This document shows, piece after piece, positions 26,830 through 34,812 of a stretch of DNA of 36,233 nt (positions within the stretch are counted from its first letter, which is position 1; every line of letters starts with the position of its first letter). Under the pieces are notes generated by a model. The model saw only the letters and a program-made list of their open reading frames with translations. It searched no databases and was not told the origin of the DNA. The DNA comes from an uncultured Oscillospiraceae bacterium (GTDB taxonomy: Bacteria; Bacillota; Clostridia; Oscillospirales; Oscillospiraceae). The DNA lies in assembly GCA_947628315.1 (NCBI GenBank), contig CANQZJ010000019.1:1-36233 (forward strand), written 5' to 3'. The position numbers and the translations under genes are program-made.

Positions 26830-27855
26830 TTGACCGATCTGAAATCCATGACGCCCGACGAGCTGACCGCCTGGTTCAAGGGGCTGGGACAGCCCGCCTT
26901 CCGGGCCAGACAGGTGTTCGCGTGGCTGAACCAGGGCGTCTCGTCTTTTGACGAAATGACCAATCTCCCCAAGGATCTGCGGGAGAGGCTGGCGGGGGAG
27001 TGCCGCCTGTTCGCGCCGGTCATCGAGCGCAAACAGGTATCCAGGATCGACGGCACCGTCAAGTACCTGTGGCGGTTATACGACGGGAACTGCGTGGAAA
27101 CGGTTTTGATGCGCTACCATCATGGGAATACTGTGTGCGTGTCCTGCCAGGTGGGGTGCAACATGGGCTGCGTGTTCTGCGCCTCCACCCTTGGTGGCAA
27201 GGTAAGAGACTTGACAGCAGGCGAGATACTTGACCAGATCATCTTCGCCCGGAAGGACAGCGGGGAGAAGATCTCCAACATCGTGATGATGGGCATCGGC
27301 GAGCCGCTGGACAACTTCGACAACGTGCTCCGCTTCCTGGAGCTGGTCAACCACCCCGACGGATTGAACATCGGCATGCGGCATATTTCCCTCTCGACCT
27401 GCGGCCTCATCAAGAGAATTGACAAACTGGCGTCACTTGGGTTACAATTAACGCTCAGCGTATCCCTCCACGCCCCGGACGACGAGACCCGCTCCCGGCT
27501 GATGCCGGTGAATCGCTCGGTGGGTGTGGACGCGCTGATGGAGACCTGCCGCCGGTATTTCGAGACCACCGGACGGCGCATCTCCTATGAGTACGCCATG
27601 ATCGACGGCGTCAACGACAGCGACGCTGACGCGGATCGTCTGGCGGAGCTTTTGAAGGGCCAGCCGGGACACGTGAATCTGATCCCGCTGAACGACGTGG
27701 CAGAGTCCCCGCTGAAACCCAGCCGGCGGGTCAGACAGTTCCAGCAGCGGCTGGAGAGCCACGGCGTCACCGCCACGGTGCGCCGGAAGCTGGGCAGCGA
27801 TATTGACGCCTCCTGCGGCCAGCTTCGGCGGCGGCAGATGGAGGCGGGGAGGTAA
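26830..27855 (+). CDS. rlmN: 23S rRNA (adenine2503-C2)-methyltransferase RlmN
   Basis: Radical-SAM enzyme that methylates A2503 of 23S rRNA and A37 of some tRNAs. The 341 residues contain the Fe-S motif CNMGCVFC (CxxxCxxC) in VSCQVGCNMGCVFCASTLGG, the stretch NIVMMGIGEPLDNFDNV, SLHAPDDETRSRLMPVN, and the C-terminal catalytic cysteine in DIDASCGQLR. The start is a TTG at 26830: it follows AGAGAGGGTG at a good distance and gives the family N terminus TDLKSMTPDELT. The first ATG (26848) would drop conserved residues. A strong promoter-like sequence lies inside it at 27419-27448. Confidence 0.95.
   Translation: MTDLKSMTPDELTAWFKGLGQPAFRARQVFAWLNQGVSSFDEMTNLPKDLRERLAGECRLFAPVIERKQVSRIDGTVKYLWRLYDGNCVETVLMRYHHGNTVCVSCQVGCNMGCVFCASTLGGKVRDLTAGEILDQIIFARKDSGEKISNIVMMGIGEPLDNFDNVLRFLELVNHPDGLNIGMRHISLSTCGLIKRIDKLASLGLQLTLSVSLHAPDDETRSRLMPVNRSVGVDALMETCRRYFETTGRRISYEYAMIDGVNDSDADADRLAELLKGQPGHVNLIPLNDVAESPLKPSRRVRQFQQRLESHGVTATVRRKLGSDIDASCGQLRRRQMEAGR
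27419..27448 (+). promoter_or_regulatory. Putative internal sigma-A promoter for prpC-prkC-rsgA
   Basis: A perfect TTGACA (27419-27424) and TACAAT (27443-27448, 5 of 6) with an 18-bp spacer, inside rlmN. The codons here (ATT GAC, TTA CAA TTA) are less GC-biased than the gene around them. Transcripts would begin about 400 bp upstream of the phosphatase-kinase pair, which has no promoter of its own. Confidence 0.45.
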
Positions 27856-27859
27856 TCTT

Positions 27860-28597
27860 GTGAAGCTGTATGGCATGACCGATGTGGGCAGGGCCCGCCG
27901 GGACAATCAGGACAGCTACGCTTTCCGCCAGCTGGGGGACGACCTTGCCATCCTTGTGGTGTGCGACGGCATGGGCGGCGCCCAGAGCGGCAGCGTGGCC
28001 AGCGCCGTGGCGGCGGAGGCCTTTACCGCCGCTGTGGAGGAGCGCTGCGCCGGCGGCCTGCCCCAGGACGACGGCGGACGCCAGCGGATGCTGATCGAGG
28101 CCTGCGACGCCGCCAACCGGCAGGTATTTGATATGGCCCAGCAGAATGAGGAGTGCCAGGGCATGGGCACCACCCTGGTGGGCGCACTGGTCACCCCGAC
28201 GGAGGCCTATGTGCTCAACGTGGGGGACAGCCGCTGCTACCTCCTGCGGGACGGCGCGGCCAGACAGCTGACCACCGACCACTCCTATGTGCAGCTGCTG
28301 GTGAGCCGGGGGGAGATCACCCCGGAGGAGGCCCGCCATCACCCCAAGAAAAACATCATCACCCGTGCCGTGGGGGTGGACAGCGAAGTGGGCTGCGATA
28401 TCCAGCGCCTCGACCTGTGCCCCGGCGACCGGCTGCTGCTGTGCTCCGACGGGCTGACCAACGTGCTGGACGACAGCGTGCTGGCGGAGCAGTCCGCCGG
28501 TGAGGAGGACGCGGAGCGATATGTCCGCACGCTGCTGGATATGACCCTGGAGGGCGGCGCCCCCGACAACGTCACCGTCGTGCTGGCGGAGATTTGA
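27860..28597 (+). CDS. prpC: PP2C-type serine/threonine protein phosphatase (PrpC/Stp)
   Basis: Metal-dependent phosphatase that removes phosphate from targets of the kinase encoded next to it. The 245 residues hold the PP2C motifs in order: RRDNQDSY (11-20 region), VVCDGMGGAQSG (D36), GMGTTLVGALV, LNVGDSRCYLLRDG, TTDHSYVQ, ITRAVGVD, LLLCSDGLTN, and GAPDNVTVVL near the end. The start is a GTG four bases after the rlmN stop, behind GGGGAGG at the normal distance. prkC follows after 17 bases, the conserved phosphatase-kinase pairing of Bacillota. Confidence 0.95.
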   Translation: MKLYGMTDVGRARRDNQDSYAFRQLGDDLAILVVCDGMGGAQSGSVASAVAAEAFTAAVEERCAGGLPQDDGGRQRMLIEACDAANRQVFDMAQQNEECQGMGTTLVGALVTPTEAYVLNVGDSRCYLLRDGAARQLTTDHSYVQLLVSRGEITPEEARHHPKKNIITRAVGVDSEVGCDIQRLDLCPGDRLLLCSDGLTNVLDDSVLAEQSAGEEDAERYVRTLLDMTLEGGAPDNVTVVLAEI

Positions 28598-28614
28598 CGA
28601 GGAGGATTTACACT

Positions 28615-30588
28615 ATGGATCAGTACATAGGTAAAATGCTCGATAACCGATATGAGATACTGGAGTGTATCGGCAACGGCGGCATGGCCGTGGTATATAA
28701 GGCCCGGGATCACCGGCTGAACCGTCTGGTGGCGGTGAAGATCCTGAAGCCCGAGCTGGCCAGCGACGCGGACTTCCGCCGCCGCTTCCACGACGAATCC
28801 CAGGCCGTCGCCATGCTGTCCCACACCAATATCGTCTCGGTGTACGACGTCAGCCAGTCCGACGGGCTGGACTACATCGTCATGGAGCTCATCGACGGCA
28901 TGACCCTCAAGCAGTATATCCGCAAGCGTGGCGCGTCCCTGAACTGGCGGGAGGCCATCCACTTCATCACCCAGATCCTGCGGGCGCTGGATCACGCCCA
29001 CAGCCGGGGCATCATCCACCGGGATATCAAGCCCCAGAACGTTCTGATTTTGCGGGACGGCAGCGTGAAGGTCACCGACTTCGGCATCGCCCGCATCGCC
29101 AGCGCCGCCCAGCACACCATGACCGCCGAGGCCATCGGCTCGGTGCACTATATCTCCCCGGAGCAGGCCAAGGGCAGCCATGTGGACGCCCGCACCGACA
29201 TCTATTCCGCCGGCGTGGTGCTCTATGAGATGCTCACCGGCCGCCTGCCCTTTGAGGGCGACAACCCGGTGAATGTGGCCATTCAGCACATCAACTCCAT
29301 CCCCATTCCGCCCAGAGAGCTGAACCCGGACATCCCGCAGGGGCTGGAGGACATTGTTCTGAAGGCCATGGCGCCCGATCTGAACCAGCGCTATTCCTCC
29401 GCCGAGGTCATGCTGGAGGACATCAACGAGTTCCGCAAGAACCCCGCTATGCGGGCGGCAGTCCCCGTGCGGGAAGAGGCGGTGGACGAGCCCACTGTGA
29501 TCATTTCCTCGGCGAGACAGGCGGATCCCGAGCCGGTGCAGCAGCGTCCGGCGGTTCGGACGCGGGAGCAGGTTCCCGTCCGGGAGAACCGCTATCCCGC
29601 CCGCCGGGAGGAACCGGAATACGAGGACGATTACGGCGAGGGCGTCGGCAGCCGTTTGGCGTCCTTTGCCCCGGTGATCGCGGTGGCCGCCATTGTGATC
29701 TTTGTGATCGGCATGGGCCTGTTCGTGTGGAATGTATTCATCAAGGATATCGTCACACCGGGGCCTCCGGAGCTGCCGGAGGAGTTCACCGTGCCCAATT
29801 TGCTGGGCCTCACCATGGACGATGTGAGGAGGAACCCGGATCTCCTGGAGGGGTTCACCCTGGAAGCGGGCAGTGAGATCTACAGCGAGGAATATGAAAA
29901 GGGCCAGATCTGCAACCAGTCCCCTGAGGCCGGCGAGAAGGTCAAAGAGGGCGACGGGAAGGTCATCCGGGTCAATATCAGCAGCGGCGTCGAGGAGCTG
30001 AGGATGCTCTACCTGATCAACCAGGAGTACCATGACGCGGAGCTGAAGCTCACCAACATGGGCATCGAGGTCGTCGAGCGGCGCGAGAACTCCGATACCA
30101 TCACCAAGGACTATGTGATCCGCACCGACCCGGAGGAGGGCGAGGTGCTGGAGAAGGGCCAGACCGTCATTGTGGTCATCAGCGACGGCCCCGCCACCAA
30201 GCTGGTGAATGTGATCAGTTTTGTGGGCCTCGATCTGGATAACGCCAGAAAGATGATCGAAAAGATGGGCCTGGTGGTGGGCGAGGTTTCCCCCAACCCC
30301 AGTAATGAGTATGCCGCGGGCAGGGTCATGTGGCAGAGCGTGCCCAGCACCAGTTCCGTGCCGGAGGGGACCGCCATCGATCTGTGGGTGTCCACCGGGC
30401 CGGAGCCTACGCCGGAGCCCACACCGTCTCCCACGCCTGAGCCCACACCGTCGCCCACGCCGGAACCGACGCCGGAGCCGACTCCGACCGAAGCTCCGCC
30501 CACCGAGGCGGTTCCTACGGAGGAGCCGCCCCATGACGAGCCCGTGCCTCCGGGTGAGCAGGGCGCCGAGGGCGGAGAAGGCCAGTGA
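28615..30588 (+). CDS. prkC: PASTA-domain serine/threonine protein kinase PrkC
   Basis: Membrane kinase that senses muropeptides and controls cell-wall synthesis, and in Bacillus also germination. The 657 residues show the kinase domain (about 12-270: glycine loop GNGGMAVV at 20-27, K42, HRDIKPQN with D137, DFG at 155-157, [13 protein letters not shown]). A linker rich in Glu/Arg/Pro follows, then one membrane segment (351-375) and three PASTA repeats (about 391-457, 458-525 and 526-595). The tail is rich in Pro-Thr-Glu (from about 600). The start is the ATG behind GAGGAGG. The first residues, [15 protein letters not shown], fit the family. The repetitive tail may span or bind the wall. Confidence 0.96.
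30408..30495 (+). repeat. Tandem Pro-Thr/Pro-Glu codon repeat in the prkC tail
   Basis: About seven imperfect copies of a 12-base unit of the type CCNACGCCGGAG, encoding PTPE/PTPS steps of the extracellular tail of the kinase. The period follows codons, with no frameshift. Confidence 0.75.
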
Positions 30589-30590
30589 GC

Positions 30591-31475
30591 ATGACCGGAC
30601 AGATCGTCAAGGCGCTCAGCGGCTTCTACTACGTGGACACGGGGAAGGGAGAGCCCATCCCCTGCCGGGGGCGGGGCAAGCTCCGCCACCAGAAGATGAC
30701 GCCCCTGGTGGGCGATCAGGTGGAGATCACCGCCATGCCGGACGGCACCGGCATGGTAGACGCCGTACATCCCCGCAAAAACCAGTTCCAGCGGCCCATG
30801 GTGGCCAACATCGACCAGCTCATCATCGTGGCATCCGGGGCTGTCCCGGTGACCGACCCGTTCCTCATCGACCGCATGGCGGCGGTGGCGGAGTGGAAGG
30901 GCTGCGAGCCCGTCATTTGCTTCAATAAGTGGGATCTCGCCCAGGTGGACGGCCTGGCGGCGCTGTATCAAAAGGCCGGATTTACCACGTTGAAGGTCTC
31001 TGCCGAGACCGGCGAGGGCGTCCCTGAGCTGGCCGCCCTGCTGGCGGGAAAGCTGTCCGCGTTCACCGGGAACTCCGGCGTGGGCAAGTCCAGCATCCTG
31101 AACGCCATCCAGCCGGACTTCTCCATCCAGGTGGGGGAGGTCAGCGAGAAGCTGGGCCGCGGCCGGCACACCACCCGCCATGTGGAGCTGTTCCGCGTGG
31201 GCGACGGCCTGGTGGCGGACACGCCGGGGTTCTCCTCCTTCGATGTGGATCAGATGGAGGCCATCCCCAAGGAGGATCTGGCCGCCGCTTTCCGGGAGTT
31301 CCGGCCCTGGCTGGACAGGTGCCGTTTCCGGGGCTGCGCCCATGTGAAGGAGAAGGGCTGCGCCGTGCGGGAGGCCGTCAAAGCGGGGGAGATCGATCCC
31401 AGCCGCCATAAAAGCTATGTGCGGCTCTATGAACAGGCAAAGGACATCAAACCCTGGGAAAACAAAACCGAATAA
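30591..31475 (+). CDS. rsgA: Ribosome small-subunit GTPase RsgA (CpgA/YloQ)
   Basis: Circularly permuted GTPase that acts late in 30S subunit assembly. The 294 residues contain an N-terminal OB fold (GQIVKALSGFYYVDTG). The G motifs come in permuted order: NKWD at 112-115 (G4), SAETGEG (G5), GNSGVGKSS at 160-168 (G1), the TT of GRHTTRHVE (G2) and DTPGFSSF at 210 (G3). The zinc finger is CRFRGCAHVKEKGC at the C terminus. The ATG at 30591, behind GGAGAAGG, is preferred to the GTG at 30585. It follows prkC as in Bacillus, where RsgA is a PrkC substrate. rpe and thiN, the next genes in Bacillus, are missing. Confidence 0.96.
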   Translation: MTGQIVKALSGFYYVDTGKGEPIPCRGRGKLRHQKMTPLVGDQVEITAMPDGTGMVDAVHPRKNQFQRPMVANIDQLIIVASGAVPVTDPFLIDRMAAVAEWKGCEPVICFNKWDLAQVDGLAALYQKAGFTTLKVSAETGEGVPELAALLAGKLSAFTGNSGVGKSSILNAIQPDFSIQVGEVSEKLGRGRHTTRHVELFRVGDGLVADTPGFSSFDVDQMEAIPKEDLAAAFREFRPWLDRCRFRGCAHVKEKGCAVREAVKAGEIDPSRHKSYVRLYEQAKDIKPWENKTE

Positions 31476-31477
31476 AT

Positions 31478-31507
31478 GTCACTGGACAGCCCTCTTTCTC
31501 ATATGCT
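31478..31507 (+). promoter_or_regulatory. Candidate sigma-E promoter of spoVM, inside the hairpin
   Basis: GTCACTGG (31478-31485) and CATATGCT (31500-31507) with a 14-bp spacer. Match to the sigma-E consensus is modest (GTCA in the -35, CATA and the last T in the -10). The spacing is identical to the better sites before sipL and spoIVA, and CTCATAT recurs in the sipL site. Initiation would fall near 31513-31515, within the hairpin loop. Confidence 0.42.
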
Positions 31508-31538
31508 GGTGTAAAGCCATGAGAAAGGGGGCTGTTTT
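31486..31538 (+). terminator. Hairpin after rsgA that covers the spoVM ribosome-binding site
   Basis: 17-bp stem: 5' arm ACAGCCCTCTTTCTCAT (31486-31502) and 3' arm ATGAGAAAGGGGGCTGT (31519-31535), with one G-T pair, a 16-base loop that can pair GCT with AGC, and then TTTT. It can act as the terminator of the prpC-prkC-rsgA transcript. The 3' arm contains GAAAGGGGG, the only ribosome-binding site for spoVM, so the folded RNA would also block spoVM translation. Confidence 0.75.
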
Positions 31539-31539
31539 C

Positions 31540-31620
31540 ATGCGGATCGTGGTGGTCAAATTCCCGAAGATGATATGCGGATTGCTCCGCAAGCTGTTCC
31601 ACATGGACGGGGAGAAGTAG
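31540..31620 (+). CDS. spoVM: Stage V sporulation protein M
   Basis: A 26-residue amphipathic peptide that recognises the curved membrane of the forespore and anchors SpoIVA there, starting spore-coat assembly. It reads MRIVVVKFPKMICGL then LRKLFHMDGEK. Length, K7, P9, K10, G14 and R17 coincide with Bacillus SpoVM (also 26 residues), and P9 is the residue known to matter for its membrane placement. The start ATG lies eight bases after AAAGGGGG. The position just after rsgA matches Bacillus, where spoVM closes the same gene run. sipL and spoIVA, its partners, follow. It is easily missed because of its size. Confidence 0.9.
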   Translation: MRIVVVKFPKMICGLLRKLFHMDGEK

Positions 31621-31623
31621 TCA

Positions 31624-31653
31624 GTCATATCGGAGCTGCACCGCTCATATAGT
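31624..31653 (+). promoter_or_regulatory. Putative sigma-E promoter of sipL
   Basis: GTCATATC (31624-31631, 7 of 8 to the sigma-E -35) and CATATAGT (31646-31653, 6 of 8 to the -10) with a 14-bp spacer. A start near 31660 would leave a leader of about 27 bases containing AAGGAGTGG (31671-31679) before the sipL ATG. Sigma-E is the early mother-cell sporulation factor, consistent with the gene. Confidence 0.75.
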
Positions 31654-31686
31654 TGGTTAGAAATACGCCTAAGGAGTGGACAGCTT

Positions 31687-33189
31687 ATGGATATGGAATT
31701 GCAGCGTGTGGCCGTAGAGGGCTACCGGCCCCTCTATCACACCGCCTTTACCCAGGAGGAGACCCTGGAGAGCATCGTGCCCGACGCCCTGCCCGACGTG
31801 TCCCGCATCGTGGCGGCCTGGGGCAGAGCGCACCTGAAGGACTGTGAGACGGGCGAGGGGGCGATCCGCCTGAGCGGTTCGGCCCAGGTGACGGTGCTGT
31901 ACATCCCGGAGGGCGAGGACGCGCCCAGGTCGCTGGAGGTGACCATCCCCTTCCAGTGCGCGAAGGACGACCCCAGCCTCCACGCCGGGTTCCCGGCTGC
32001 GGCGGACGTCACCCTGTCCTCCGCCGACGCCCGCACCCTCAACCCCCGGAAGCTGCTGACCCGGTGCCAGCTCTCGATCTGGGCGGCGGCCTATGAGGAG
32101 GGCGTCCAGCAGCTCGCCTCCGACGCAATGGGCGAGGGGCTGGAAAAACAGATGATCCCCCGGAAATTCTGGCGCATCCCCGCGGTGCGGGAGAAGGCCT
32201 TTACCTTCTCCGATGTGCTGCGGCCCCCGGCCTCCAAGCCGGAAATGGAGGAGCTGCTGAACGCCCGGGTGGAGCTGGGTTCCGTGGACGCCAAATTCAT
32301 CGGCCGGAAGCTGGTGCTGAAGGGGGATGTGGTGCTCACCGCCCTGTACAGAAACGGAGATCAGATCGTCACCGCCCGGTTCGAGCTGCCCTACTCCCAG
32401 ATCGTGGACATGGGGGACGCGCCGGAGGACTCCGAGCCGGAGGTGACGGTGGCCCTCAAGGCCGCCGACTGCCAGTTGACGGACGGCGAGCTGGAGGTGA
32501 ACATCGAGGCGCTGATTCAGGCGGTGCTGTGGGCGCTCCAGCCGGTCAATGTGCTGGCGGACGCCTATGGCGTGGGTCAGTGCGTGAATGTGGAGCGCGC
32601 CCCGGAAATGATGTGTACCCTGGCGGAGCGCACCACCCGCCGTGAGATGGGCCGCAGGCTGTGTGAGTCAGGCATCCCGGCCAAACAGGTGTTGGACTGC
32701 GCCGTGGCGGTGTCCTCCGTCACGGAGGCGCCCGCCGAGGGGGGGATCGAGTATACCGCCCAGGTGGAGGCAACCGTCCTCTACCTCAGCGAGGACGACG
32801 CCCTCTGCGGGGTGGACGTCACCATCCCCGTGGTGAGCCGCGTGGAGGTGCCCGCGGAACACAGCCGGAGCATCTGCCACTGCCGGACGGTGGGGGAGCC
32901 CACGGCGGTGCCCGTCACCGGCGGCATCGAGGTGCGGTGCGAGGTGGAATTTTCCTTCAACGTCGTCCAGGCGGAGCCGGTGTGGGCGGTGTCGTCGCTC
33001 GCCCCGGGGACGGCACCGGAAAACGTCCAGCGCCCCTCGGTGGTCATCCGCCGGATGATGGACGGGGAGACGCTGTGGGACGTGGCGAAGGCCTGCGCCT
33101 CCACGGTGTCGGATATCCAGGCCGCCAACGATCTGCCAGACCCGGCGGGCGCGGCGGGCGCGCTGCTGCTCATCCCCACAAAACGGTAA
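31687..33189 (+). CDS. sipL: SipL-like spore coat morphogenetic protein (SPOCS/DUF3794 and LysM)
   Basis: A 500-residue protein with SPOCS (DUF3794) type beta-rich segments and a C-terminal LysM domain (about 450-498: DGETLWDVAKACASTVSDIQAANDL, ending LLLIPTKR). This is the layout of Clostridioides SipL, which binds SpoIVA through its LysM domain and joins the coat to the forespore. SPOCS-like repeats are visible as paired stretches such as VEATVLYLSEDDALCGVDVTI and AQVTVLYIPEGED. No signal peptide is seen, as expected for a mother-cell protein. It has a sigma-E promoter and lies between spoVM and spoIVA. Other DUF3794-LysM proteins exist in Clostridia, but the neighbours favour SipL. Confidence 0.85.
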   Translation: MDMELQRVAVEGYRPLYHTAFTQEETLESIVPDALPDVSRIVAAWGRAHLKDCETGEGAIRLSGSAQVTVLYIPEGEDAPRSLEVTIPFQCAKDDPSLHAGFPAAADVTLSSADARTLNPRKLLTRCQLSIWAAAYEEGVQQLASDAMGEGLEKQMIPRKFWRIPAVREKAFTFSDVLRPPASKPEMEELLNARVELGSVDAKFIGRKLVLKGDVVLTALYRNGDQIVTARFELPYSQIVDMGDAPEDSEPEVTVALKAADCQLTDGELEVNIEALIQAVLWALQPVNVLADAYGVGQCVNVERAPEMMCTLAERTTRREMGRRLCESGIPAKQVLDCAVAVSSVTEAPAEGGIEYTAQVEATVLYLSEDDALCGVDVTIPVVSRVEVPAEHSRSICHCRTVGEPTAVPVTGGIEVRCEVEFSFNVVQAEPVWAVSSLAPGTAPENVQRPSVVIRRMMDGETLWDVAKACASTVSDIQAANDLPDPAGAAGALLLIPTKR

Positions 33190-33238: not shown

Positions 33239-33275
33239 GCGGATCAGATGAGCGGAAAACCGGATGATCAGTTTA

Positions 33276-33304
33276 GCATATTTGAGGGCTTATCCCCATA
33301 CATA
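33276..33304 (+). promoter_or_regulatory. Sigma-E promoter of spoIVA
   Basis: GCATATT (33276-33282, full match to the sigma-E -35 core) and CATACATA (33297-33304, CATACA perfect) with a 14-bp spacer. The predicted start is near 33311. The -10 box includes the first base of an upstream in-frame ATG (33304), so that ATG would not be on this transcript. Confidence 0.83.
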
Positions 33305-33320
33305 TGGAACAAGCACGGGC

Positions 33321-33328
33321 AAGGAGGG
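33321..33328 (+). promoter_or_regulatory. Ribosome-binding site that sets the TTG start of spoIVA
   Basis: AAGGAGGG lies eight bases before the TTG at 33337. It would be inside the coding region if translation began at the ATG at 33304. Confidence 0.85.
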
Positions 33329-33336
33329 TTTTGAGC

Positions 33337-34812
33337 TTGGAAAACAAACTGTATGAGGATATCGCCCAGCGCACCCAGGGCGACATCTATATCGGCGTGG
33401 TGGGGCCGGTTCGGACGGGCAAGTCCACCTTCATCAAGCGGTTCATGGAGACCATGGTGCTGCCCCGCATTGAGAACGGCTACGTTCGGGACAGGGCCAG
33501 GGACGAGCTGCCCCAGAGCGGCTCCGGCCGGGTGGTGATGACCGCCGAGCCGAAATTCGTCCCCGAGGACGCGGTGGAGATGGCCATGGAGGACGGCGGC
33601 GTGTTCTCCGTGCGGCTCATCGACTGCGTGGGGTATATGGTGCCGGGCGCCCTGGGTCAGATGGACGGCGATATGCCCCGGATGGTGCGGACGCCCTGGT
33701 TCGACCACGACATCCCCATGACCCAGGCGGCGGAGTACGGCACCCAGAAGGTCATCACCGACCACTCCACCATCGGCATCGTGGTGACCACCGACGGCTC
33801 CATCGCCGACATCCCCCGGGAGGACTACCTGGAGGCGGAGGAGCGGGTCATCAGCGAGCTGAAGGCCATCGGCAAGCCCTTCATGGTGCTGCTGAACTCC
33901 GCTGAGCCCTATGGCGAGCGGGCCCAGACCCTCCAGGCGGACATCGCCGAGCGGTATGACGTGACGTGTCTCGCCGTCAACTGCCTGACCCTGGACGAGG
34001 GGGCTGTGACGGACATCATCCGGGGTGTGCTCCACGAGTTCCCCATGAAGGAGATGGACGTGTTCCTGCCGCCCTGGGTGGACGTTCTCCCAATGGATCA
34101 CCCCATCAAAAGCGGGCTGTACGCCATGCTGCGCCAGGAGACGGCGAACCTGGAGCGGCTCCGGGACGCGGAGAAGTCGGTGCAGGCCATGGCCGACCAT
34201 GAGGAGATCGGCACGGCCGCTCTCACCAGGATGGACATGGGCAGCGGCGTGGTGACCGTCAACCTGGAACTGCCCCGCAGCCTGTTCTACGCCACCGTAT
34301 CCGAGCGGTGCGGCCTGGACATCCGGGACGACGGCGACCTGATCGACCAGCTCACCCAGATGGCCGCCATGAAGAAGAAATACCAGAAGGTGGAGGGCGC
34401 CCTGGCGCAGATGGAGGCCACCGGCTACGGCATCGTCATGCCCGACCCGGAGGAGATGACCCTGGAGGAGCCGGAGATCGTCAAACAGGGGGGGCGGTAC
34501 GGCGTCCGGCTCCGGGCCTCGGCGCCGTCCATCCACATGCTCCGGGCGGATATCAAGACGGAGGTGTCCCCCATCATGGGCACCGAAAAGCAGTCGGAGG
34601 AGATGGTGGACTACCTGCTCCGGCAGTTCGAGGGGGACACGGGGAAAATCTGGGATTCCAACATCTTTGGCCGCTCCTTCCACGAGCTGGTGGGAGAGGA
34701 TCTGAACGGCAAGCTGAAGCGGATGCCGGAGGACGCAAGGGAGAAGCTGCGGGAGACCCTCCAGCGCATCATCAACGAGGGCTCTGGCGGACTGATCTGC
34801 ATCATCCTTTGA
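33337..34812 (+). CDS. spoIVA: Stage IV sporulation protein A (spore coat ATPase)
   Basis: Cytoskeletal ATPase that polymerises on the forespore surface to form the coat basement layer. From the TTG the protein has 491 residues (492 in Bacillus) and its first residues, MENKLYEDIAQRT, align with Bacillus MEKVDIFKDIAERT. Walker A is GPVRTGKST (K29). Other conserved stretches are DELPQSGSG, MTAEPKFVPEDA, VRLIDCVGYMVPGA, HSTIGIVVTTDGSI, and the C-terminal IMGTEKQSEEMV and RIINEGSGGLI. The promoter and ribosome-binding site support the TTG start over the upstream ATG. Its 3' end overlaps the convergent oxidoreductase gene by 11 bases. Confidence 0.96.
   Translation: MENKLYEDIAQRTQGDIYIGVVGPVRTGKSTFIKRFMETMVLPRIENGYVRDRARDELPQSGSGRVVMTAEPKFVPEDAVEMAMEDGGVFSVRLIDCVGYMVPGALGQMDGDMPRMVRTPWFDHDIPMTQAAEYGTQKVITDHSTIGIVVTTDGSIADIPREDYLEAEERVISELKAIGKPFMVLLNSAEPYGERAQTLQADIAERYDVTCLAVNCLTLDEGAVTDIIRGVLHEFPMKEMDVFLPPWVDVLPMDHPIKSGLYAMLRQETANLERLRDAEKSVQAMADHEEIGTAALTRMDMGSGVVTVNLELPRSLFYATVSERCGLDIRDDGDLIDQLTQMAAMKKKYQKVEGALAQMEATGYGIVMPDPEEMTLEEPEIVKQGGRYGVRLRASAPSIHMLRADIKTEVSPIMGTEKQSEEMVDYLLRQFEGDTGKIWDSNIFGRSFHELVGEDLNGKLKRMPEDAREKLRETLQRIINEGSGGLICIIL

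Follow-up and report, generated by a model that had tools for sequence, protein, structure and literature searches.

Housekeeping operons often lie right next to developmental genes, and the question of how the latter are protected from read-through during growth is seldom considered. The spoVM gene of an uncultured Oscillospiraceae bacterium raises this question. In the window, by which we mean the whole 36,233-nt stretch of DNA analysed, the ORFs of a prpC/Stp1 phosphatase gene (27803-28597, + strand; NF033484), the PASTA kinase gene prkC (28594-30588, +; Pkinase and PASTA domain matches) and rsgA (30585-31475, +; RsgA_GTPase match) overlap one another (27803..31475, +). The three genes are probably co-transcribed and are the presumed source of read-through RNA. 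They are followed by spoVM, a small ORF of 26 aa (31540..31620, +) that is conserved in relatives and matched NCBIfam NF033436 (SpoVM_broad) with an E value of 5.3e-6 and 26.3 bits, below the curated cut-off of 31. Further downstream lie a SipL-like SPOCS/LysM gene (31624..33189, +; ORF 31687-33189), in which three stretches matched PF12673 and the LysM match fell slightly below its cut-off, and spoIVA (33275..34812, +; TIGR02836, 686 bits), whose true start is probably further inside its ORF (33304-34812). Going by literature titles on SpoIVA-SipL, we take spoVM, the SipL-like gene and spoIVA to be a coat-base gene set. The stretch 31440-31640 was present once in the window's genome.

The hairpin over the spoVM Shine-Dalgarno sequence

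A single hairpin fills the gap between the rsgA stop (31475) and the spoVM start codon (ATG, 31540). Its stem has 18 bp, pairing 31485-31502 with 31519-31536, and the loop region (31503..31518, +) contains a small inner stem (31505-31507/31515-31517). The fold of 31484-31545 had a free energy of -33.5 kcal/mol, compared with -16.1 kcal/mol (sd 2.7) for dinucleotide shuffles (z -6.4); none of 200 shuffles was as good. The Shine-Dalgarno sequence of spoVM, GAAAGGGGG (31523-31531), lies entirely inside the 3' arm (31519..31536, +), and the sequence TTTTC (31535-31539) overlaps the end of this arm. A reading made from the sequence only had proposed a hairpin after rsgA that hides this site; the hairpin and the burial were borne out, and its stem was confirmed at 18 bp rather than the 17 bp given. 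Our terminator scan accepted loops of 3-8 nt only, so the loop of this hairpin was outside its reach.

We then compared the predicted accessibility of the Shine-Dalgarno sequence in read-through RNA and in RNA starting in the loop. For the window, the read-through RNA had a predicted probability of 0.001 of leaving the site unpaired, and opening the segment from the site to the AUG would cost 23-25 kcal/mol; for RNAs starting at 31508-31516, the predicted values were about 0.57 and 4.5-5.0 kcal/mol. Over 47 elements, the mean probability was 0.047 in read-through RNA versus 0.452 in the short RNA, and the mean opening cost was 21.3 versus 8.9 kcal/mol. The site was more open in the short RNA for 46 of the 47 elements, and one element gained little from a start in the loop (at least 0.2 kcal/mol). 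An RNA that starts in the loop would lack the 5' arm, and its Shine-Dalgarno sequence would therefore be free. Thus the sequence, the comparison and the predicted accessibility all support a site that is hidden in read-through RNA and freed in loop-start RNA.

Promoter-like blocks in the 5' arm

The 5' arm (31485..31502, +) consists of the spacer and the start of the -10 element of conserved promoter-like blocks and, as judged from the folds and its co-evolution with the 3' arm, acts as an anti-Shine-Dalgarno strand. The -35 element CACT (31480..31483, +) contains an AC (31481-31482), 16-17 nt upstream of CATA, that is invariant in 46 aligned elements. The -10 element CATATGCTG (31500..31508, +) is located at the stem tip; AC-N16/17-CATANNCTG was kept in 37/37 same-genus genomes while the spacer sequence varied, and 11 further named loci have CGTATACTG. 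Counting from the -10 element, transcription is expected to start at about 31512-31516, within the loop.

The earlier reading had placed a sigma-E promoter with a -35 element of GTCACT (31478-31483) here. Its -10 element proved to be conserved, but only the AC of its -35 element was, and the sigma-E assignment did not hold: AC, without ATA, is found at -35 in 46/46 aligned elements. According to a study of Clostridioides difficile, sigma-E and sigma-K promoters share a common -10 element and differ at -35, with ATA for sigma-E and AC for sigma-K (PMC3789822). An ATA-type -35 element about 14 nt before CATA is absent from the spoVM promoter, whereas the SipL-like gene, which served as a control, and spoIVA have their own sigma-E-type promoters with CATA-type -35 elements, GTCATATC-N14-CATATA (31624-31651, +) and AGCATATT-N14-CATACA (33275-33302, +), respectively. 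The SipL-like promoter pattern gave 34 matches among the loci listed, 7 of these being duplicates. Because the spoVM promoter has AC and lacks the ATA of its neighbours, we read it as not sigma-E-like. It fits AC-N16/17-C[AG]TANNCT, with a sigma-K-type -35 and a CATA-type -10 element, and is putatively sigma-K-like by its AC. Bacillus subtilis spoVM, which encodes the same small coat protein, is listed as turned on by sigma-E (PMC517825); the gene studied here differs from it in the sigma-K-type -35 element and the proposed read-through guard.

The sigK model had matches in 14/14 genomes, with none above the cut-off, and also matched other sigma factors (11/14 control genomes); yabG (TIGR02855) was absent from 14/14 genomes and gave no sigma-K comparison. 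The best sigK-model match appeared to be split in G001:C81, G018:C102 and G014 (C12, C65); the pieces lay on different contigs or at distances of tens of kilobases, a pattern expected of a skin-type insertion.

ECF sigma factors have the consensus GAACC...CGTATA. An ECF sigma factor was considered for the spoVM promoter and rejected, as AC alone is invariant and AAC is not. Searching with the -10 element alone stayed at chance level (81 matches versus 85 for the control). The stricter pattern MACM-N16/17-CRTATACTG gave 0-2 matches per genome in 7 genomes, in total 10 versus 5 for the reversed pattern, so no large regulon was visible. Three of the 10 matches were hairpin elements near spoVM (L139, L145, L146), and five preceded a small conserved ORF without a Shine-Dalgarno hairpin. 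This ORF (motif DVDDLI; L137, L138, L140, L141, L144) has CAC-N16/17-CATATACTG upstream, lies in some loci immediately before a release-factor-like gene, and perhaps has another promoter of the same sigma class.

Conservation, pairing and recurrence of the element

The search for RsgA covered the window's genome, 36 others of its genus and 23 from its order, 60 in total. Each of the 37 same-genus loci had one and only one match to [AC]ACN-N16/17-C[AG]TANNCTG after rsgA, within the stretch searched; these elements lie 0 to 589 nt past the rsgA stop, and spoVM, as judged by eye, comes next. No such element was seen in the 13 order-level loci read. A scan of named genomes, which were uncultured Oscillospiraceae, Pseudoflavonifractor and kin, returned 27 loci: 7 repeats of known elements, 11 new ones with CGTATACTG (L059, L061-L070) and 9 unmatched. 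Several of the named loci have a small ORF between the hairpin and spoVM, and the Shine-Dalgarno sequence of this ORF is then part of the 3' arm; a Pfam search with one of these ORFs found nothing at E 0.1. A small hydrophobic ORF (MLSEEMKRDLALAAACTGG...-like) occupies this position in L059, L062, L065, L066 and L068-L070, and has apparently been lost from L063, L064 and L067, where the hairpin is retained.

A covariance model built from 46 elements matched 88/300 family genomes and 47/106 genera at E 0.01, with ordinary hairpins among the weak matches. We also assembled a sample based on SpoVM and independent of the hairpin, in which 130 family genomes gave 56 matches, of which 50 were fetched and 43 located. 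An AC-N15-17-CRTA-type match was present within 650 nt in 29/43 (the best-pairing match being taken) and absent from 14/43; 20/43 folded at -18 kcal/mol or lower, and only 12/43 had z < -3. By these counts, the layout is frequent in the family without being universal. Genome sampling found 1795 strong hairpins in about 1.2 Mb, of which 217 cover a Shine-Dalgarno sequence and start codon; CRTA was at the tip of 14/217 of these versus 51/1578 other hairpins. Since a number of the 14 are apparently spurious and the scan did not pick up the spoVM hairpin in G003, it shows only that such a layout is rare within a genome.

To determine whether the arms belong together, we used a register-free test in which each spacer was paired with its own leader and with those of other elements. 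Among 46 elements, pairing with the own arm averaged -22.8 kcal/mol versus -16.9 kcal/mol with other arms. For 26, 23 and 17 representatives with spacer identity below 80, 70 and 60%, own pairing averaged -19.3, -19.0 and -18.3 kcal/mol and cross pairing -14.2, -13.8 and -14.0 kcal/mol, an advantage of 5.0, 5.2 and 4.3 kcal/mol (z -8.2, -8.0 and -5.8), and p reached the lowest value that 20,000 permutations allow (5e-5). Eighteen members of the pool had been added regardless of pairing. The own partner was the single best for only 8/26, 10/23 and 7/17 representatives. Control promoters of the sipL-like gene showed an own-partner preference of about 1 kcal/mol (z about -2). The spacer-to-leader pairing z averaged -4.05 over the 47 spoVM elements, with 79% below -3; z < -3 was found in 4/27 sipL, 0/8 spoIVA and 0/12 yabP promoters, which served as sigma-E-type controls. 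Column-based signals were modest: 81.8% of cells were paired versus 79.5% after shuffling, with fewer pair types than in the shuffled arms; parsimony counted 11 double compensations versus 1-10 with the arms slid; and RNAalifold kept only 7 pairs on the A1 alignment, probably because the alignment loses the register of the low-complexity arms. The sequence-only reading had looked to relatives for a conserved -10 element and compensatory changes in the stem. The former was found in 37/37 same-genus loci; for the latter, the own-versus-cross comparison indicated co-evolving arms, and the signal in columns and parsimony was modest.

In six same-genus loci, a terminator-like hairpin (the call required a stem but did not ask for a T run) or a gene separates rsgA from spoVM, the gap being >390 nt in five. 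Their hairpins averaged -22.2 kcal/mol versus -35.2 kcal/mol at the 30 other loci (Mann-Whitney p 2.8e-4), in a small sample of loci that are not independent; the spacer duplex alone gave p 5.3e-4. Every separated locus has a -35 element of the AACA/AACG type, and within this type (6 versus 6 loci) the separated hairpins ranged from -15.1 to -32.8 kcal/mol and the others from -26.9 to -40.3 kcal/mol (exact p 0.004). One separated locus, L017, has a strong stem (-32.8 kcal/mol). L037 (-26.9 kcal/mol) was scored as unseparated solely because N letters interrupt its upstream hairpin; visual inspection shows it to be separated, and its reassignment leaves no overlap between the two groups. In L010 and L037 the upstream hairpin is present and the values are -25.2 and -26.9 kcal/mol, versus -36.1 kcal/mol in both of the similar loci L012 and L038, in which it is truncated by eye. 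Loss of the stem in relatives keeping the gene order, which the earlier reading had regarded as evidence against it, occurred in 0/30 unseparated loci: the fold energy is at or below -30.8 kcal/mol in 29, and the remaining one is L037. The promoter blocks remain in loci with the weaker stem. Such weakening of the stem at separated loci is expected of a read-through guard, whether it acts by locking or by terminating, and is not predicted for a structure that acts in the sporulation message. The own-versus-cross test and the weaker stems at separated loci indicated that the arm pairing is selected, not incidental. In L015, a seventh locus counted apart from these six, about 170 nt with an inverted repeat lie between the -10 element and the 3' arm; the hairpin is split and the promoter blocks are intact.

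A similar layout was found at a second gene, which we call spoVB-like, as its best SpoVB-model match was below the curated cut-off in 41/41 genomes. A CATA -10 element was detected by regular expression in 28/30 loci read, and in most folds the -10 element lies in the 5' arm and the Shine-Dalgarno sequence in the 3' arm of a hairpin. The window's genome has such an element (G000:C1:81139-81194, - strand; L263, L122, L218); it starts where the upstream gene, YycI-like by eye, has its stop codon. The spacer-leader z was < -3 in 19/28, and the co-evolution was weaker than at spoVM (z -2.3 to -2.8), near that of the sipL control. Single cases with the same layout, in various genomes, were yabP (L130), murA (L124), TIGR04086-like genes (L123, L125) and small ORFs (L112, L120), all named by eye. 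yabP was rejected as a further case in this genus, with 0/25 loci showing the layout by eye and 5/30 not located. The leader at the yabP loci (L264-L293) is structured differently: it has a CCCCATA-type promoter and, in many loci, a short downstream hairpin (GACCATC...GATGGTC) whose loop contains or adjoins the Shine-Dalgarno sequence.

A proposed guard against read-through and its alternatives

We propose, with a probability of roughly 0.7, that the hairpin element guards spoVM from read-through and carries its developmental promoter. Read-through RNA from prpC-prkC-rsgA would copy both arms, fold and hide the spoVM Shine-Dalgarno sequence; in lineages with a U-run it may additionally terminate at the hairpin. 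The promoter in the 5' arm would be used in the mother cell by a sporulation sigma factor, which the AC -35 element suggests is sigma-K-like. The resulting RNA would start in the loop without the 5' arm, leaving the Shine-Dalgarno sequence free for translation of spoVM. The stem, the buried site, the invariant promoter blocks, the co-evolving arms and the weaker stem where read-through is blocked were all observed by computation; read-through presumably does occur, and the lock is probably strong enough to matter.

Alternatively, the hairpin might simply be the intrinsic terminator for the rsgA operon, incidentally holding the spoVM promoter and Shine-Dalgarno sequence, with selection acting on termination rather than on hiding the site. 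We consider this unlikely. The GC-rich stem is followed by TTTT in the window, the 9 nt ahead of the start codon contain a T run of at least 4 in 31/47 elements (4 in 25, 5-6 in 6), a weaker stem beside another terminator is likewise predicted, and L063, L064 and L067 keep the hairpin with T6-T7 although the spoVM Shine-Dalgarno sequence is outside it. However, the longest T run is 3 or less in 16/47, so termination can account for no more than part of the effect, and L012 and L038 retain strong stems with GTTGTTATC tails. The terminator role in the earlier reading may apply to the window, with its GC-rich stem and short U-run (TTTTC), and is doubtful for these 16 members. At the spoVB-like gene, the longest T run within 12 nt of the last GGGG, on its downstream side, is 3 or less in 18/28 loci, which favours locking over termination, and several folds pair the start-codon region too.

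Two further explanations dispense with the escape of a loop-start RNA or with selection. All spoVM RNA might start upstream with the full hairpin, to be opened by an unknown factor as in a riboswitch or thermosensor, with CATATGCTG as an RNA or protein site. The near fixation of CATATGCTG in the genus and the inner stem retained in most members agree with this, but the AC stays at a fixed 16-17 nt from CATA despite a changing spacer, which is promoter-like; loci with blocked read-through have weaker hairpins and retain the promoter blocks; the L015 insertion separates the arms and preserves these blocks; and the window had no Rfam match at the gathering threshold. We regard this explanation as very improbable. 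Still less credible is pairing as a by-product of composition, in which C/T-rich promoter spacers meet G/A-rich Shine-Dalgarno sequences. Mismatched arms do pair at about -14 kcal/mol and many pairs survive in slid alignments, but the advantage of own over cross pairing is 4.3-5.2 kcal/mol, with p at the permutation floor, shuffled spacers pair about 10-15 kcal/mol worse (6 elements tested), and neighbouring promoters rarely show such pairing.

Beyond the guard at spoVM, we tentatively suggest, at somewhat less than even odds, a recurring Oscillospiraceae design in which the spacer of a mother-cell promoter is the anti-Shine-Dalgarno strand of its own gene. One stretch would then be promoter, lock and sometimes terminator, used at spoVM, the spoVB-like gene and perhaps yabP, murA, TIGR04086-like genes and others in various genera, and strong only where housekeeping read-through threatens.

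The transposase genes of IS10 and IS50 follow a related logic: read-through RNA folds over the ribosome-binding site, and RNA from the own promoter does not. These are cases of mobile-element self-protection without a developmental sigma factor, unlike spoVM. For phage T4 I-TevI, early and middle RNAs fold and hide the ribosome-binding site, while RNA from the late promoter lacks enough of the hairpin; soc and e are also cited for such hiding (PMC2988022). The candidate spoVM promoter may likewise be placed so that its RNA would escape; however, the T4 genes use viral late promoters in a phage temporal switch, and spoVM is a cellular developmental gene after a housekeeping operon. For B. subtilis sigG (spoIIIG), a hairpin of 20+ bp has been proposed that keeps read-through RNA from being translated; RNA made from the sigG promoter itself cannot form it (PMC5942855). 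Like spoVM, sigG is a sporulation gene downstream of another operon with a proposed read-through hairpin that own-promoter RNA would escape. Unlike spoVM, it is described there as a single proposed case of a forespore gene with a sigma-F/sigma-G promoter, whereas spoVM is a coat gene with presumed mother-cell expression in another family, with many genera and a second, spoVB-like gene of similar layout. With both locks spoVM shares a stable hairpin predicted to cover the Shine-Dalgarno sequence in read-through RNA, and it has its own conserved promoter-like blocks in the 5' arm. Among the matches listed in open-licence literature (titles and starts of abstracts), no description of a spoVM promoter within a hairpin was found. 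The logic of a read-through lock is known from T4 I-TevI and proposed for sigG; spoVM adds a broadly conserved case and a comparative clue to function.

The answer to the read-through problem at spoVM is seemingly built into the promoter DNA itself. According to the model, stray RNA from the growth genes next to spoVM should yield no SpoVM, and translation should be confined to the spore-stage message. The element has been kept in many genera of a major gut family, is weaker at loci that do not need it and recurs at another spore gene, so it makes a clear prediction that reporters can test. In addition, spoVM in Oscillospiraceae may use a sigma-K-type rather than a sigma-E promoter, which bears on the timing of coat assembly.
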